From Cycloclasticus sp. (GTDB lineage: Bacteria > Pseudomonadota > Gammaproteobacteria > Methylococcales > Cycloclasticaceae): DNA of 64,000 nucleotides. Shown here piece by piece: positions 8,023-16,763 of this stretch (position 1 is its first letter; every line of letters begins with the position of its first letter). The stretch is taken from assembly GCA_040743155.1 (NCBI GenBank), contig JBFLJU010000001.1:558001-622000 (forward strand). The letters run 5' to 3'. The notes beneath the pieces are model-generated. The model made no database searches and was not told the origin of the DNA. It saw only the letters and a program-made list of their open reading frames with translations. Position numbers and translations under genes: made by a program.

Positions 8023-9492
8023 TTAATTCAGCTCATGTTCAGCTTTTCTCTTTAGGCACCGTCCTCTCGGTTCGTTGCCCTCATAAAGCACGATGTCGGA
8101 ATGCAAAAACTGTGCAGCCTCTGCTGAGTCTTTCACTTTTTTAGCACTGCGTTCTAACATGTCTGATTCAAATTCAGTTAACACACTTTCTCTCACGCCT
8201 ACTTCCCTCCATTGGGATAAAGGTCTACATCCTTTTTTGATCCCCCGAGCCAGCGCCAGCGAATCTAGCAGAGCTTGATTGGCTCCCTGTCCTTTGAACG
8301 GGCTCATCGGGTGAGCCGCATCTCCAATCAGGGTCACTTGAGCTGCTTTTTGCAATAGCTCTGGCTCAAGTGGTACTCGGTCATACACAGGGTAACCAGA
8401 TACCTGAGCTTCCAGCGTAGCGGCTAAAATCTGAGGAATGGGATCGTGCCACTGACATCGGCGACGCGCTTCTTCCTTCAATGCTCCGGCTCCTTGAGCG
8501 CTTAATGCCTTAGCCTCTTTTTCTGCCATAGGGAAGCTAAGTTGCCACATCACCGAGGTTGACGAATAAGGCATCATGTAGATCCGCTCATGGCCATTGG
8601 CGGTTTGGAATACCGTGGCTGAGTCCAGCAAAGAACTGTCAATACATTTAATCTCTTCTAAAGGACAAATCCCTAAAATCACAATACATCCTAAGTAACA
8701 TAATGGAGAAGCCTCTTCACCAATCAACAACCTCCTGACTGAGCTACGAATTCCATCTGCCCCCACCACAAGGTCCGCATTGGCGCTCTTGTTGCCACCC
8801 TCTACTTCAAAGCTCAACTCTACAGCTTTACCCTGATGTTCTTTAAACGCCACCAATTGATGCCCCCACTGCACGGCATCATCTCCACCTAGTTGCTCAA
8901 GTAAAGCTAAGCGTAAGGACTGTCTAGCGATATGCACATTCGTACGCTTCGGTGTCGTTTTCGCATCTGACGGCCCCCACTTTCTAGTGCCCCATTCAGC
9001 GATTACTTTTCCATCGGTAGAATGAACTAGGTGCCGAGTTGAAATGACACCGTCTTCTAACGAGAAAATGCCCAAGCCTTCGATTGCTCTACTGGCTTGT
9101 TGCAAAGTGAGCCCATATCCTTGAGAACGTGCATCGAAGCCGCTATCGCGTTCATAAAGAGTAAAAGGAATGCCGCGGTGAAAACAAGCCACGGCGAGAG
9201 CCACGCCACCAATTCCAGCACCAATGATAGCAAGGTGAGGGTAGTTCTCTTTATCCGTTAAAGGGGGCGTATCAGAATGAACCAATCCAGAGCCATTACA
9301 TTTTAAGCATGAGGCGAGGTGACCTTTAGGGCGAGCGGGAGGCGACCCTTGGCTATTTGCTTTTTCAAAATGCTCCAGTTCCCGCTGGTAGCGGAGTTTT
9401 ACTTTTTTGCGGAGCCTTTTGCTTTTTTTGCCGTGGCCCTTACATTCCAGACAAATAGCCCAGTGACTCTGTTCGTTTTTCACCTTGTTCAC
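8023..9492 (-). CDS. FAD-dependent monooxygenase with N-terminal CxxCxGxG zinc-finger-like module
   Basis: A 489-residue protein. From about residue 85 it is a class A flavoprotein monooxygenase (PHBH fold): the dinucleotide fold IIGAGIGGVALAVACFHRG, a VVGADGIRSSVRR segment, and the FAD-ribityl motif GDAAHPMSPFKGQGANQA near residue 400. Such enzymes hydroxylate small, often aromatic substrates with NAD(P)H and oxygen. The first 70 residues are unusual: two DnaJ-like CxxCxGxG repeats (Cys14/Cys17 and Cys62/Cys65) flank a basic helical linker, suggesting zinc binding or nucleic-acid/protein contact. The start codon is GTG with AAGGTCAG just upstream. The substrate is unknown and no catabolic operon surrounds it. 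Confidence 0.85.
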   Translation of the reverse strand: MNKVKNEQSHWAICLECKGHGKKSKRLRKKVKLRYQRELEHFEKANSQGSPPARPKGHLASCLKCNGSGLVHSDTPPLTDKENYPHLAIIGAGIGGVALAVACFHRGIPFTLYERDSGFDARSQGYGLTLQQASRAIEGLGIFSLEDGVISTRHLVHSTDGKVIAEWGTRKWGPSDAKTTPKRTNVHIARQSLRLALLEQLGGDDAVQWGHQLVAFKEHQGKAVELSFEVEGGNKSANADLVVGADGIRSSVRRLLIGEEASPLCYLGCIVILGICPLEEIKCIDSSLLDSATVFQTANGHERIYMMPYSSTSVMWQLSFPMAEKEAKALSAQGAGALKEEARRRCQWHDPIPQILAATLEAQVSGYPVYDRVPLEPELLQKAAQVTLIGDAAHPMSPFKGQGANQALLDSLALARGIKKGCRPLSQWREVGVRESVLTEFESDMLERSAKKVKDSAEAAQFLHSDIVLYEGNEPRGRCLKRKAEHELN

Positions 9493-9751
9493 CTGACCTT
9501 TATTTAACCCGCCATCGGTTCCAATGTAATAAGAAAAGCTCCGCCAATACGGCTGACGTTGATCGTTAAGTTGTGATTATAACGTTGCAGGAAAAGGGGA
9601 TGTTAATAACCGCTATCACTTGCTTTAAATTTTGTCATCGAGCTAACTTGTTTTATTAAAGTCCATTAAAATGACCCCATTAAATTCTAATAGCTGAGCC
9701 TACTTAATAGCAGCATTAAATCCTGCTATAGTCCAAAATTTGGAGCACTAA

Positions 9752-10642
9752 ATGGCCATTTCCGAGCACCCCTCAAAACTGAGTTTGCCGCAGACTAACC
9801 CCGGTGTTGCCACCGTGCTGGAATACCTGATCATTAAATTCCCCTATGTTGATGCCAAGATTTGGCAACAGCGAATGGCCGATGGCAAAGTACACTGGCA
9901 CGACGGCTCGTTGATAACGACGCGATCGCCATTTAAACCGCAACAAAGGGTTTATTATTACCGGGAAGTTGACAGCGAACCGAGTATCCCCTTTGAGGAA
10001 ACCATTTTATTCCAAGACCAGCACATTTTAGTGGCCTATAAGCCTCACTTTTTAGCGGTAACCCCTGGCGGTATTTATGTGAATGAATGTTTGCAAAACC
10101 GCTTGCAACGGAGCACAGGCATTAAGGCCTTACAACCGTTGCACCGCTTGGATAGAGTGACAGCTGGCTTGGTTATGTTCTCTGTTAACCCGAGCAGCCG
10201 CCATCGTTACCATCATTTATTTGAAACACGACAAATACACAAAACATACCAGGCCATTGCCAAAATTAGTCACGGTGAAAAGTTGCTTGCTCAGGAGTGG
10301 GACATTAAAAATCGTATCGTGCAGGGCGAACCACGTTTTCGCATGCAGGTGACCAAGGGGGAAGCCAATAGTCATTCTGTGATTCGATGCTTGCAACAAT
10401 CAATTCAACATGCGTTATTTGAATTAAACCCCGTTACGGGTAAAACCCATCAATTACGCGTTCACATGCAGGAGCTGGGCTGGCCTATATTGAATGACAA
10501 ATACTACCCAAAACTACAGCCACTATCAGCAGATAACTATTCAGCGCCATTGCAATTACTGGCAAAGGAACTTCAGTTTGTGGACCCAATAACTCAGCAG
10601 CCAAGAAGCTTTAGCTGTGACAATAACTTATTGCTGGAATGA
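9752..10642 (+). CDS. RluA-family pseudouridine synthase
   Basis: A 296-residue protein with the RluA-family catalytic motif HRLD at residues 131-134 (catalytic Asp134) in LQPLHRLDRVTAGL, and the later GKTHQLRVHM motif. The N-terminal 75 residues resemble a small S4-like RNA-binding region. Family members isomerise specific uridines in 23S rRNA or tRNA. The target (RluA, RluC/D or TruC type) cannot be assigned from sequence alone. TTGGAG seven bases before the ATG supports the start. It is transcribed divergently from the flavin monooxygenase. Confidence 0.9.
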   Translation: MAISEHPSKLSLPQTNPGVATVLEYLIIKFPYVDAKIWQQRMADGKVHWHDGSLITTRSPFKPQQRVYYYREVDSEPSIPFEETILFQDQHILVAYKPHFLAVTPGGIYVNECLQNRLQRSTGIKALQPLHRLDRVTAGLVMFSVNPSSRHRYHHLFETRQIHKTYQAIAKISHGEKLLAQEWDIKNRIVQGEPRFRMQVTKGEANSHSVIRCLQQSIQHALFELNPVTGKTHQLRVHMQELGWPILNDKYYPKLQPLSADNYSAPLQLLAKELQFVDPITQQPRSFSCDNNLLLE

Positions 10643-10752
10643 GGCAAGTACGCCGTTGATCTTTAGCAGTCGGCTTGATGTTGTTAGATATTAGTAATAA
10701 AACAAGCGGGCTGGGTTCTTGATATAGGGGTGAAACAAGAAGGGCGAGCTAG

Positions 10753-11004
10753 TTAACGATAAAAGGCTTCAACCGTTCCTTTTAGTTTTATCAGAAGCGG
10801 CTGCCCTCGACGATCCACGGCTTTAGGAGAAGCGATTTTTACCCAACCTTCACTGATGCAATACTCCTCAACATCGGTACGTTCTTTGTCGTTCAGCTTA
10901 ATGCCAATATTGTGCTGCTCGAAGATCTCTGCCACATGATGTGGACTACGGGGGTTACCAGACAAGCGATCAGGTAAAGAGGGTAGCGATTTAGTATCAT
11001 TCAT
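10753..11004 (-). CDS. DUF3297 family protein
   Basis: An 83-residue protein matching the DUF3297 family almost end to end: LPDRLSGNPRSPHH, then NDKERTDVEEYCISEGWV, and a C-terminal KLKGTVEAFY. The family is small, conserved and of unknown function. The chosen ATG at 11004 (MNDTKS) gives the usual family length; longer forms starting at 11064 would add residues with no family match. It is transcribed away from the glutathione S-transferase gene, with about 95 bp between the two starts. Confidence 0.85.
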   Translation of the reverse strand: MNDTKSLPSLPDRLSGNPRSPHHVAEIFEQHNIGIKLNDKERTDVEEYCISEGWVKIASPKAVDRRGQPLLIKLKGTVEAFYR

Positions 11005-12114: not shown

Positions 12115-14193
12115 GTGGTGTGTGTGACAAAAAATGATGGGCACAAGTATGTTGAAAAGGAACTTAGCTGGTTATCGTTTAACGAGCGGGTTTTACAAGA
12201 GGCGACAGATAAGTCTGTTCCTATTGTAGAGCGGGTACGATTTTTAGGAATATTCTCCAATAACCTTGATGAGTTTTTTCGTGTTCGAGTAGCGAATGTT
12301 AAGCGTAAAGTCCTTATTGAAAAAAGCTTGGAAGATGAAACGCCGACAAAAAACCTTTTGCGCGCCATTCAGAAAAAAGTATTAAAGCTTCAGGAAGATT
12401 TTGAAGTTATTTATTTTGATGTTTTAAAAGGGCTGGCACACCAACATATCTTTTTAATTAATGAAGATCAGCTGAGCGAAGAGCAAGGGCTCTGGCTCCG
12501 TGAATATTTTTATAATAAATTAAAGCGCTATATTGAGCCTATTATCATCAATAAAGATACCGATTTAGCATCATTATTAAAAGATGATTCAACCTATTTG
12601 ATTTGTGAAATGATTAATGGGGATGATATTCAATATGCAGCTGTTGCCATCCCAACGAATGATTCGCCACGTTTTATTGAATTGCCACGCGAGAAAGGTA
12701 AGAGACGGAAAAATATTATCATGTCAGATAATGTGATTCGCTATTGTTTTGACGATATATTTGCACCGTATTTTGACTATAAACAGCACAATGTTTATTC
12801 AATGAAAATGACCTGTGATGCGGATTTTGGCTTAACCGATGATATTGACCAGTCGTTGCTAGAAAGAATGTCGACAGGGCTTAAACAGCGCCTTAATTCT
12901 CAGCCTGTTCGCTTTGTTTATGAGCGTGGTATGTCATCGGCTGGGATTGATATGTTGAAAAATAAACTGGGTATTTCTAGGAATGACAGTGTTATAGCGG
13001 GTGGTCGTTACCATAACTTTAGGGACTTTATAGGGTTTCCAAATATAGGGCGAAAGCATTTAGAAAACCCTAAAATGCCGGCTTTAGTATCGCAAGATTT
13101 TGCTAAGTACCCCAGTGTTTTTCAAGCGATTAAAAAGAAAGATATTCTGCTGAGCTACCCTTACCATAAGTTTAGCCACTTTACTGAAATGCTGCGTGAG
13201 GCGGCTTTTGATCCGGCTGTTTTTGAAATAAAAATAAGCGTGTACCGAGTGGCAAGCAATAGCCGTATTATTAAATCACTCATTAATGCGGTAAGAAACG
13301 GTAAAAAAGTACTGGCAGTTATAGAGCTACATGCACGATTTGATGAGCAGGCAAATATAGAGTGGGCAAAGGTGTTAACCGAAGGGGGGGTAAAGGTTGA
13401 GTTCGGAGTGCCTTCTTTAAAATGCCATAGCAAACTATGTTTAATTGGGCGGCACGAAAAGGACAAAGCGGTGTACTACGCCCATATAGGCACGGGTAAT
13501 TTCCACGAAAAAACAGCAAAAATATATACTGACTATAGTTTGTTCACTCGTAATGAAGATATTACAAAAGAAGTGATCGATGTTTTTGACTTTATTGTTA
13601 ACAGTTATAAGCAAAAAGAATTTAAGCACTTAATTGTTTCGCCTGTTAATACCAGAGACTGGATTAATCAGTCGATTGATAATGAAATTAAAATGGCAAA
13701 AAAAGGTCATAAGGCCGAAATTTTATTAAAAGTGAATAATCTTGATGATAAAAGTATTATTCGTAAGCTCTATGAGGCGAGCTGTGCGGGTGTGAAAATT
13801 CGTATGATTATCAGAGGGATGTGCGTATTAGTGCCAGGTGTAGATGGCCTGAGTGAAAATATTGAGGTTATATCAATTGTTGATCGTTTCTTGGAGCATA
13901 CTCGGGTGAGTGTTTTCCATAATGGTGGTAAACCGAAGGTTGTGATTAGTTCAGCCGATTGGATGACACGGAATATTGATCGCCGAATAGAAGTCGGTTG
14001 CCCTATTTACGATGAGGGTATTCAGCAACGACTGATTTATATATTTAACGTGCAATGGAGCGATAAAACAAAAGCTAGAATTATTGATAAGAAGCAGGTT
14101 AATGAGTATAGGCCACGTGGCAATAAACGAAAAATACGTTCACAAGTAGCGATATATGATTACCTGAAAGCGATTGAAAGTAAAAAAACATGA
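12115..14193 (+). CDS. ppk1: Polyphosphate kinase 1
   Basis: A 692-residue enzyme that reversibly polymerises the gamma-phosphate of ATP into inorganic polyphosphate. Family landmarks are clear: the N-terminal ELSWLSFNERVLQEA, then NLDEFFRVRV, and the two active-site histidines His438 (SLKCHSKLCL) and His457 (YAHIGTGNF); the first corresponds to the autophosphorylated His of E. coli PPK1. The length is normal. The start is GTG; further GTG codons at 12118 and 12124 are possible, and the predicted transcript start leaves little room further upstream. The stop overlaps the ppx start by 4 bases (ATGA), so the two are translationally coupled. A Pho box lies immediately upstream. Confidence 0.96.
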   Translation: MVCVTKNDGHKYVEKELSWLSFNERVLQEATDKSVPIVERVRFLGIFSNNLDEFFRVRVANVKRKVLIEKSLEDETPTKNLLRAIQKKVLKLQEDFEVIYFDVLKGLAHQHIFLINEDQLSEEQGLWLREYFYNKLKRYIEPIIINKDTDLASLLKDDSTYLICEMINGDDIQYAAVAIPTNDSPRFIELPREKGKRRKNIIMSDNVIRYCFDDIFAPYFDYKQHNVYSMKMTCDADFGLTDDIDQSLLERMSTGLKQRLNSQPVRFVYERGMSSAGIDMLKNKLGISRNDSVIAGGRYHNFRDFIGFPNIGRKHLENPKMPALVSQDFAKYPSVFQAIKKKDILLSYPYHKFSHFTEMLREAAFDPAVFEIKISVYRVASNSRIIKSLINAVRNGKKVLAVIELHARFDEQANIEWAKVLTEGGVKVEFGVPSLKCHSKLCLIGRHEKDKAVYYAHIGTGNFHEKTAKIYTDYSLFTRNEDITKEVIDVFDFIVNSYKQKEFKHLIVSPVNTRDWINQSIDNEIKMAKKGHKAEILLKVNNLDDKSIIRKLYEASCAGVKIRMIIRGMCVLVPGVDGLSENIEVISIVDRFLEHTRVSVFHNGGKPKVVISSADWMTRNIDRRIEVGCPIYDEGIQQRLIYIFNVQWSDKTKARIIDKKQVNEYRPRGNKRKIRSQVAIYDYLKAIESKKT

Positions 14194-15704
14194 TAGATAA
14201 AATGATTAAGAAAAGTGATAGCTCAGAGTTGCTAGCGGCATTAGACCTTGGTTCTAATAGCTTTCATTTGATTATTGCCCGTATGCAAAATGGCATTATT
14301 GAACCTATTAAACGGGTTAAGCACCGCGTTAAGTTAAGAGCGGGGCTAAATAAAGAAAATGACTTAAATTACGAATCAATTCTACGTGCTGTTTCTAGCT
14401 TGAAAGAAATAGGCGATATATTAAAAGAAAGTGGAGCCGGAAAAGTGAGGGTGGTAGCAACACATACCATTCGTGAGGCAAATAATCGTAATGCATTTTT
14501 AACATTAGCTGAGCAAGCGTTAGGCTTCCCAATAGAGATTATTTCTGGCTGTGAAGAAGCGCGCCTTATATATCAAGGTGTGGTACGTAGTGAGGCGTTA
14601 CTCGACAATAGTTTAGTGATTGATATTGGTGGCGGTAGTACAGAGATAGTGGTGGGTGAGGGCTGTGAGACCCTCTATAGAGAAAGCAAAAGTATGGGCT
14701 GTATCAGTTTTACTGAACGTTATTTCTCGAAAGAGTTGAACAAAAAAGCTTTTAAAAAAGCGGAGATAGCGACCTTACAGAAACTAGAGTTTTGTTCACA
14801 TCGCTTTAAAAAATTTAAATGGAACAATGTATTTGCAACGTCAGGCACCGCTAAAGCACTTTTTAAAGCGGTTGGTTTAGTGGGCGACAATACCGATAGC
14901 TTATTGTTGAGCGACCTTTTGGAGTTAAAGAACTTGTTATGCCAGAAGTCTTGTTTTGAAAAGCTTTCGTGGGTCGGTATTGATGAAGCGCGAGCCGGCG
15001 TATTACCCGCGGGTGTGGCGATTATGATCGCGGTAATGAAAAGCTTAGGTATTACAGAGCTAAAGTCCTGCAGCGCTGCTTTGCGTGAAGGTGTTCTTTA
15101 TGAAATGGAGCAGCAAGATAAAGAGCAAAGTACACGACTATTAACCCGTCAAGATATGCAAACGCGCTACCATGTGGATCGACGACAGGCACAACAAGTA
15201 GCGGAAACGTGTGAGCTGCTATGGAATCAAGTGGCTGAAGAGTGGAGCTTAGAAACGACAGGTTTAAAAGAGTTGTTAAAAGAAGCGGCTTATTTATATG
15301 AAGTGGGTTTGCAAATTAGTGTCAGTGATTTTCAAAATCACTCGGGCTATATTTTGGCAAATAGTGAATTGCCTGGCTATAACCAAAATGAGCAGCAACT
15401 ATTAGGGCTGTTGGTGAGTAATGGGAGAAAAAAATTCAAACGAAGAAGCTTGCCATTACTGCGTAATGTTAGTCATAAAGTGTTAACACGTTTAATTCGT
15501 CTATTCCGTTTAGCGGTATTGCTAAATAATAGCCGTCAGCCATTAGTGGTTGATTTGCTCAGCTTGAAGACAGATGGCGGTGATATGCAATTGACGATTG
15601 ATAAGGCATTTTTTCTTGAGCAAGATTTAAATGTTGCCGATTTAGATAAGGAAGCGAAATTGATGGCTAAACTGGGTAATAAACTATCTTACCAATTGGT
15701 TTAA
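14190..15704 (+). CDS. ppx: Exopolyphosphatase, Ppx/GppA family
   Basis: A 504-residue ASKHA-fold phosphatase: phosphate-1 motif ALDLGSNSFHLII near residue 17, THTIREANN near 93, and phosphate-2 motif DIGGGSTEI starting at Asp145, followed by an HD-like helical C-terminal region. It releases terminal phosphate from polyphosphate chains, and family members may also act on pppGpp. The length matches long Ppx enzymes such as that of E. coli rather than short ones. The overlapping ATGA start with ppk indicates an operon in which synthesis and breakdown enzymes are coupled. No terminator is visible directly after the stop. Confidence 0.95.
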   Translation: MIDKMIKKSDSSELLAALDLGSNSFHLIIARMQNGIIEPIKRVKHRVKLRAGLNKENDLNYESILRAVSSLKEIGDILKESGAGKVRVVATHTIREANNRNAFLTLAEQALGFPIEIISGCEEARLIYQGVVRSEALLDNSLVIDIGGGSTEIVVGEGCETLYRESKSMGCISFTERYFSKELNKKAFKKAEIATLQKLEFCSHRFKKFKWNNVFATSGTAKALFKAVGLVGDNTDSLLLSDLLELKNLLCQKSCFEKLSWVGIDEARAGVLPAGVAIMIAVMKSLGITELKSCSAALREGVLYEMEQQDKEQSTRLLTRQDMQTRYHVDRRQAQQVAETCELLWNQVAEEWSLETTGLKELLKEAAYLYEVGLQISVSDFQNHSGYILANSELPGYNQNEQQLLGLLVSNGRKKFKRRSLPLLRNVSHKVLTRLIRLFRLAVLLNNSRQPLVVDLLSLKTDGGDMQLTIDKAFFLEQDLNVADLDKEAKLMAKLGNKLSYQLV

Positions 15705-15728: not shown

Positions 15729-15926
15729 TTATTTAGGTGTGCTGTTATATTTTAGCAGGGCATCTTCAATTAATCCCTCAATCAGATTTTGTAAGCTAGT
15801 GTCTTTTTCAATAGCCATTATTTTTAGGGATTTTAGTGTCTTTTTTTCTAAACGAAGGGATGTGCTTTTCTTTGCCTTGCTAGGGCTGTTGTTTTCTTTT
15901 TTAGAGTCTTCTTTTTGATTTTTCAT
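15729..15926 (-). CDS. Small ribbon-helix-helix-like basic protein
   Basis: A 65-residue protein. The first 25 residues are lysine-rich and probably disordered. From about residue 24 the pattern STSLRLEKKTLKSLKIMAIE then SLQNLIEGLIEDALLKY is the strand-helix-helix pattern of ribbon-helix-helix (CopG/Arc-like) DNA-binding proteins. It could be a local repressor; many such proteins bind short palindromes near their own gene. A GTG two codons upstream is an alternative start; no strong ribosome binding site is present for either. It converges with ppx (24-base gap) and lies downstream of the 25-residue basic peptide on the same strand. Confidence 0.65.
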   Translation of the reverse strand: MKNQKEDSKKENNSPSKAKKSTSLRLEKKTLKSLKIMAIEKDTSLQNLIEGLIEDALLKYNSTPK

Positions 15927-15987
15927 TGGCACATGACTAGCAAATATAAAAGTATTTCATAATATTAGAAATATTGAGCGAAGAAGT

Positions 15988-16024
15988 AAAGCCTCGCCGC
16001 CAGTTTAGCTGGCGATGAGGCTTT
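15988..16024 (-). terminator. Strong hairpin, probable intrinsic terminator
   Basis: Arms AAAGCCTCGCCGCCAG (15988-16003) and CTGGCGATGAGGCTTT (16009-16024) pair over 16 positions with a 2-base mismatch around a 5-base loop. On the minus strand it lies 11 bases after the stop of the 25-residue peptide and ends in TTT followed by ACTTCTTC, a moderate U-tract. It would isolate that small gene as its own transcription unit ahead of the ribbon-helix-helix gene. Confidence 0.65.
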
Positions 16025-16035
16025 AATAAAAAAAA

Positions 16036-16113
16036 CTAGATCTTCTTTTTTAGTTTCTTAATTTTTTTAGTTAATTTTTTGATTTTTAGTTTGATCTCTT
16101 TTTTCTTAGCCAT
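16036..16113 (-). CDS. 25-residue lysine-rich amphipathic heptad peptide
   Basis: A short ORF of 25 codons plus stop. AAGGA seven bases before the ATG is a good ribosome binding site, and a strong hairpin follows the stop, so it looks like a real small gene. The peptide begins MAKKKEIK and has 14 lysines and one glutamate. Hydrophobic residues fall at positions 7, 11, 14, 18, 21 and 25 (Ile, Ile, Leu, Ile, Leu, Ile), a perfect 4-3-4-3-4 heptad spacing, giving a basic amphipathic helix able to form a coiled coil. A role in binding polyphosphate, nucleic acid or membrane is suggested by charge and by the neighbouring ppk-ppx, but this is inference. I recognise no family. Confidence 0.55.
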   Translation of the reverse strand: MAKKKEIKLKIKKLTKKIKKLKKKI

Positions 16114-16157
16114 GTTTAGTTCCTTATGATTTATGTAATAATGATGTTAATACGTTG

Positions 16158-16187
16158 TTACGTAATGACGTCATTAGTTGCTATACT
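16158..16187 (+). promoter_or_regulatory. Promoter-like elements spanning a 14-bp perfect palindrome
   Basis: TAATGACGTCATTA at 16163-16176 is a perfect palindrome in the 206-bp region between the divergent basic-peptide and HhH/lysine-tail genes. On the plus strand it lies between TTACGT (16158-16163, weak -35) and TATACT (16182-16187, good -10) with an 18-base spacer, an ideal operator position. A repressor such as the nearby ribbon-helix-helix protein is a candidate; this is inference. Confidence 0.45.
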
Positions 16188-16319
16188 ACGGATCTTATTA
16201 TTTGTTTTCAAGTTAATTGTTTTTTTACATTATTTAGTGAATGGTACGAGATTAAAAATGTACTTATTTAAAATGATTGATTTGTATTGAATTTATTTAT
16301 GTAGCTTAAGGGGTAATGA

Positions 16320-16763
16320 ATGGAACAATTAGTTATTGAAATAGCGGGAATTGGTCAGGCAACATCGGTTGTATTGACTAAGCATGGTTTTAAAACAGTG
16401 GCTGATGTAGCAAACGCCAACGTTGAAAGTTTATCAGTGGTGCCAGGTTTTGCTAATGCTCGGTCGCTTCAGACGATAAAGAAGGCAAAGGCGCTGCTTC
16501 AAATAGTGGGTGTGTCAGCTTCTAAAGAAGTGAGTGACTCGGTTGCCAGTAAGGAAGAGGTGGCTCCTAAAAAACCGATAAAGAATAAAAAAACAGTAAA
16601 GAAAAGTAGCGGCAAAGATAAAAAATTTATTAAAAAGAAAGGTAAGAAAGAGGCCAAAAACAAAGATAAAAAAGCAGCTAAAGATAAAGCAAAGAAGACT
16701 AAAAAATCCAGTAATAAAGCGGCTATAAAAAAGAAAAGTAGTAAAAAAAGCAAGAAGAAATAG
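16320..16763 (+). CDS. Helix-hairpin-helix protein with histone H1-like lysine-rich tail
   Basis: A 147-residue protein in two parts. Residues 1-62 form a helix-hairpin-helix-type domain (IAGIGQATSVVLTKHGF, then LSVVPGFANARS) like those in NusA C-terminal repeats or the RNA polymerase alpha C-terminal domain, which contact DNA or RNA non-specifically. After a short acidic linker, residues 80-147 are about half lysine with Ala and Ser, like the tails of AlgP- or PhaF-type bacterial histone H1-like proteins. It is likely nucleoid- or polyanion-binding. AAGGGG six bases upstream supports the ATG. Position downstream of ppk-ppx suggests, but does not prove, a link to polyphosphate granules, as reported for AlgP in Pseudomonas. 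Confidence 0.75.
   Translation: MEQLVIEIAGIGQATSVVLTKHGFKTVADVANANVESLSVVPGFANARSLQTIKKAKALLQIVGVSASKEVSDSVASKEEVAPKKPIKNKKTVKKSSGKDKKFIKKKGKKEAKNKDKKAAKDKAKKTKKSSNKAAIKKKSSKKSKKK

Follow-up and report, generated by a model that had tools for sequence, protein, structure and literature searches.

We report that a lysine-rich open reading frame (ORF) of 25 residues, K25, lying beside the polyphosphate kinase and exopolyphosphatase genes of a Cycloclasticus sp., is likely a real, narrowly distributed small gene. Its divergent neighbour encodes HhH-K, a helix-hairpin-helix (HhH) protein with a Lys-rich tail, whose relatives in the order are mostly fused to polyphosphate kinase (Ppk). This link of HhH-Lys proteins to Ppk is a more general and better supported result than the function of the K25 peptide.

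The window, that is the whole stretch of 64,000 nucleotides analysed (contig JBFLJU010000001.1, positions 558,001 to 622,000), carries in order ppk and ppx on the plus strand, the gene of a ribbon-helix-helix-like (RHH) protein and K25 on the minus strand, a conserved block with an inverted repeat, and HhH-K on the plus strand (Table 1). The RHH-like gene is downstream of K25 on the same strand. RHH, K25 and HhH-K occur together in genomes G000 and G004, and the genes past HhH-K differ in G004.

Table 1. Features of the K25 locus, in window positions.
Feature	Position	Strand	Basis or remark
ppk1, polyphosphate kinase	12115..14193	+	TIGR03705, 799 bits
ppx/gppA, exopolyphosphatase	14190..15704	+	Pfam PF02541 and PF21447
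Ribbon-helix-helix-like (RHH) protein	15729..15926	-	Pfam RHH families below cut-offs
GC-rich hairpin, 10 nt past K25 stop	15987..16025	-	Fold kept in G004
K25 small ORF, MAKKKEIKLKIKKLTKKIKKLKKKI	16036..16113	-	Ortholog in G004, 23/25 identical; 0/3000 shuffles
Conserved divergent promoter/operator block	16114..16213	.	95/100 columns identical to G004
AAGGA ribosome-binding site	16121..16125	-	7 nt 5' of ATG; identical in G004
17-nt inverted repeat, candidate operator	16139..16176	.	Arms 16139-16155 / 16160-16176
Perfect 14-bp palindrome, TAATGACGTCATTA	16163-16176	.	Within the 17-nt inverted repeat
Extended -10-like TGcTATACT, candidate HhH-K promoter	16179..16187	+	By eye; not listed by the scan
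HhH-K, HHH_5 domain and Lys-rich tail, divergent from K25	16320..16763	+	Pfam HHH_5, 38.6 bits (cut-off 27)

The original prediction described an ORF with 14 Lys among 25 residues, an AAGGA seven bases from its start and a strong hairpin after its stop, and each of these was borne out at the positions tabulated. It also held that a chance low-complexity ORF would hardly combine such features. Dinucleotide shuffling of the 387-nt intergenic gap, repeated 3000 times, never yielded an ORF that reached both 20 residues and 50% Lys. Within the window no other ORF of 18–60 residues reaches 35% Lys, and in the 355,893 bases of loci scanned, which overlap and differ in base composition, the ortholog of K25 is the sole ORF that reaches 50%. 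A chance origin of the ORF is very unlikely, and K25 is probably a real gene whose translation we infer.

The hydrophobic residues at 7, 11, 14, 18, 21 and 25 fill six consecutive a/d positions of a heptad. A run of six occurs in 0.07% of residue permutations and the in-minus-out a/d score is reached in 0.2%, and the helical moment, matched in 7%, is not unusual for the composition. The coiled-coil register proposed at these positions holds, but calling it perfect was too strong because a seventh hydrophobic residue, L9, falls outside a and d.

With 14 Lys and one acidic residue in 25, the charges of K25 are not those of a self-associating coiled coil, and a self-standing one is doubtful. Owing to this charge the peptide would need a polyanion. 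K25 may encode a short amphipathic helix, strongly cationic, that folds when bound to a polyanion; polyphosphate (polyP), or polyP at the nucleoid, is the likeliest candidate. K25 gave no match to the CHAD domain PF05235 in Pfam, contains no Pro and lacks the long KPAA-type repeat tail of the H1-like granule proteins AlgP and PhaF.

The G004 ortholog lies at the same locus, with no indels and with frame and stop intact. The five DNA differences between G000 and G004 amount to E6D, I18V, two synonymous changes and a stop changed from TAG to TAA, that is 2 nonsynonymous changes over 62 sites versus 2 synonymous over 13, few changes from one relative. Four of the five lie at codon position 3 (binomial P 0.045, from 5 substitutions only), a weak codon test since a single relative supports the reading frame. 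A frameshift signal A AAA AAG was noticed by eye in frame near the ORF end and was ruled out, as G004 has lost the heptamer (codon CTT before AAA AAG) and the hairpin is far away.

Together, the ORF and the 100 nt upstream differ from G004 at 10 of 178 sites versus 363 of 2628 in ppk and the ppx start (P 0.0009). With the RHH gene as the sole reference, the ORF together with its upstream block gives P 0.07 and the ORF by itself P 0.27. Conservation is higher in the ORF than in the hairpin and linker that follow it (P 0.002). Since the upstream 100 nt are conserved as much as the ORF itself (95/100 vs 73/78), part of the conservation signal may be regulatory.

This upstream conservation would also suit a locus without any peptide, where a conserved divergent promoter/operator drives a short untranslated RNA ending in the hairpin and the ORF is an A-rich by-product. 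The compensated fold of that hairpin, described below, and the tiny phylogenetic spread of K25 speak for such an RNA. It would, however, leave aside that frame, ribosome site and stop are intact in both species, that the changes gather at third codon positions and that the shuffles yield no such ORF. We regard an untranslated RNA as unlikely and a protein-coding K25 as the preferred reading.

Identity to G004 falls to 64% past the conserved block (16214-16319). The palindrome occurs once each in G000 and G004, both times at the K25 locus, and a further copy in G003 lies within a coding frame, so these occurrences show no regulon of the operator. K25 and HhH-K may be transcribed divergently from this one conserved operator, perhaps under the control of the RHH neighbour. 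The RHH-like protein has a Lys/Ser-rich N-terminus and may act as a regulator on the inverted repeat (16139-16176). Its ATG start at 15926 is kept in G004 and the listed GTG at 15932 is not.

As a Type II antitoxin, the RHH protein has only matches under the curated cut-offs. These weak scores to antitoxin families would nevertheless allow K25 to be a membrane-active or toxic cationic amphipathic peptide with RHH as its repressor or antitoxin-like partner, and the alternation of Lys and Ile/Leu in K25 resembles that of designed cationic helical peptides. Yet the neighbourhood is one of polyP metabolism, none of the RHH scores attains its cut-off, and compared with known hydrophobic type I toxins K25 has far higher charge and lower hydrophobicity. 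A toxic K25 is highly improbable.

The hairpin consists of two 17-nt arms (15987-16003 and 16009-16025), and the folded stretch has a minimum free energy of -28.5 kcal/mol with z -6.3. In G004 the stretch is about 71% identical (columns 15996-16032) and keeps its fold; 2 pairs carry two-sided compensatory changes and 1 a one-sided change, 1 pair is broken, and 1 position is unpaired in both genomes. An intrinsic terminator was rejected, as the full hairpin is not among the calls of the terminator scan and the minus-strand T-run precedes the stem with none after it. A repeated element was rejected too, the core being found in the window solely at this site on both strands.

The order of peptide, hairpin and gene along the strand is that of a leader peptide, in which a run of Lys codons (14 of 25) would stall ribosomes when charged tRNA-Lys is short and the hairpin would attenuate RHH transcription. 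A weak second stem, in which the A-rich end of the ORF pairs with the T-run that follows its stop codon, could belong to such a device. The hairpin, however, has no T-tract behind it and is not called a terminator, the RHH gene shows no visible link to lysine, and among the folds made none was an antiterminator disrupting the whole hairpin. Attenuation by K25 is quite improbable, and we keep to K25 as a probable small-protein gene.

The conservation of frame, a/d positions and ribosome site, on which the original prediction was to stand or fall, holds in G004 at the same locus but not more widely. K25 was detected in G000 and G004, which makes 2 of the 18 genomes of the genus and 2 of the 311 of the order, and was not found in the other 16 and 309, respectively, at the sensitivity used. 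A first scan of the genome contigs gave no match. Five more genus genomes (G008, G001, G003, G014 and G017) have ppk-ppx, and reading of the available downstream flanks, which reach to about 0.9 kb past ppx in G001 and 3 kb in G003, found no Lys-rich ORF in any of them. In 11 genus genomes ppx itself had no match.

Because it was found in these two genomes only, K25 appears to be young or often lost. Beyond G000 and G004 (two places in the latter), a K25-like helix profile found 8 weak places in 8 order genomes (E 0.03–0.34), four of which (L102, L103, L106 and L107) were rejected as not being Lys-rich heptads; the remaining four (L100, L101, L104 and L105) fell outside the filter applied. In the class it gave 1 match besides G000, at E 0.007 and within a 560-aa frame. 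As to a mobile origin, the intergenic DNA had no match in plasmids, tblastn of K25 against phages and plasmids gave none, although the low-complexity filter may conceal K25, and viral contigs matched neither K25 nor the RHH protein.

At E 0.001 or better, relatives of HhH-K occupy 33 places in 32 of the 311 order genomes, and these places were compared with the ppk positions in the same 32 genomes. Of the 33, 28 lie in frame, within 130 nt upstream of a ppk match and in one open frame with it; four of these 28 fusions were given to Pfam, and in each a single ORF matches both HHH_5 and PP_kinase_N above cut-off. Two more (G018 and G021) immediately precede ppk as ORFs of their own, two are the K25 locus itself, and the last, in a 503-aa frame of G053, is not near ppk.

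With TIGR03705, the ppk of the window scores 799 bits, below the about 917–967 bits of full-length ppks that are fused to HhH and nearer to the second copies that some order genomes have. HhH-K may for this reason have met two ppk lineages. At the G004 locus (L048), ppx (8385-10979) is split by a transposase ORF at 9349-10371, IS30-like by eye.

In 369 genomes of the class, an HhH profile hit 129, mostly about 500-aa frames that are not HhH-K and presumably correspond to NusA by size. No ppk motif was seen at the class loci L071-L078 and L080-L099 within about 1.5 kb each side at most, L079 being left out as it belongs to the order. Among 16 HhH-K loci outside the order with neighbours listed, four (L070, L072, L074 and L076) have a phosphate-type binding protein together with CHAD genes, ParA-type genes or both. 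At a further one, L078, a Ppx/GppA protein adjoins HhH-K according to Pfam.

In L070 and L072, Pfam identifies a PBP_like_2 protein, a CHAD protein and an ATPase of ParA type near HhH-K. In L076 the ATPase was Pfam-tested; the remainder of L076, and L074, were assigned by eye from their likeness to L070 and L072. The four loci make a candidate polyP-granule positioning cluster of CHAD, ParA-type ATPase, HhH-Lys and phosphate-type binding protein.

Lys-rich peptides bind any polyanion, and HhH domains bind DNA. K25 could then be a small H1-like or ribosome-associated peptide that binds nucleic acid only, its proximity to ppk-ppx being incidental. This is rather unlikely, given the association of the HhH-K family, to which K25 is linked, with ppk throughout the order. 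Support for the polyphosphate idea comes from this gene neighbourhood and not from the K25 peptide itself. Overall, the original interpretation is partly supported.

In G004 the HhH-K tail carries a K25-like helix, AEKKKLKLAVKELAKKVAKLKAK, identical to K25 at 13 of 23 positions without gaps, and none of 5000 shuffled tails scores as high. At the DNA level the identity is only 41/69 between two low-complexity sequences, so common descent of K25 and the tail helix is not established. The K25-like helix is absent from the HhH-K tail of G000. K25 may act as a free-standing copy of the Lys-rich helix found inside the G004 tail.

Three known systems offer comparison. AlgP of Pseudomonas aeruginosa, an H1-like, Lys-rich DNA-binding protein, spaces polyP granules (PMC9239181); it is likewise strongly basic, tied to polyP and proposed to link polyP with the chromosome. 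AlgP is longer and has KPAA repeats, whereas K25 has 25 residues, Ile/Leu heptads and no separate DNA-binding domain, and AlgP is best compared with HhH-K and K25 together.

In Caulobacter crescentus, the HhH phasin PhaH tethers PHB granules to the nucleoid by its HhH domain, according to a review (PMC13052382), much as we propose for HhH-K. PhaH differs in serving PHB and in binding DNA at its C-terminus; in HhH-K the HhH is N-terminal and accompanied by a Lys tail, and ppk is found next to it or fused to it. K25 has no HhH. The CHAD proteins are basic helical polyP binders near polyP genes (PMC6537752). They are folded helical bundles of about 200–300 residues, unlike K25, which would be a single short helix.

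In the literature searched, with most subscription journals and other wordings outside its scope, no paper was found with both 'polyphosphate kinase' and 'helix-hairpin-helix', and 'helix-hairpin-helix' with 'polyphosphate granule' was found solely in the review PMC13052382. For small Lys-rich proteins with polyphosphate, nothing alike appeared among the titles matched.

A role of K25 in polyphosphate is possible and is put forward tentatively. As a whole, we read K25, with somewhat less than even confidence, as a lineage-restricted small protein whose cationic amphipathic helix would bind polyP, or nucleic acid, beside HhH-K. HhH-K would act as a DNA-polyP adaptor, its HhH domain binding DNA and its Lys tail binding polyP, and K25 would add polyP-binding or condensing capacity without DNA tethering. 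The fullest version is unlikely to hold in its entirety: K25 would be a polyP micro-protein, a disordered Lys heptad that forms a helix bundle only on polyP, and with the HhH-Lys adaptor, whose HhH resides elsewhere within Ppk, one module would make, bind and DNA-tether polyP.

The means by which bacteria bind, space and tether polyP are still largely an open question of the field; the review PMC13052382 uses AlgP as its example for polyP and leaves open which component does the spacing. The K25 locus suggests a module that may link polyP synthesis to DNA through an HhH-Lys protein whose HhH is elsewhere fused to polyphosphate kinase. In such a module K25 would serve as a minimal element for binding polyP, of a size that allows direct synthesis and testing.
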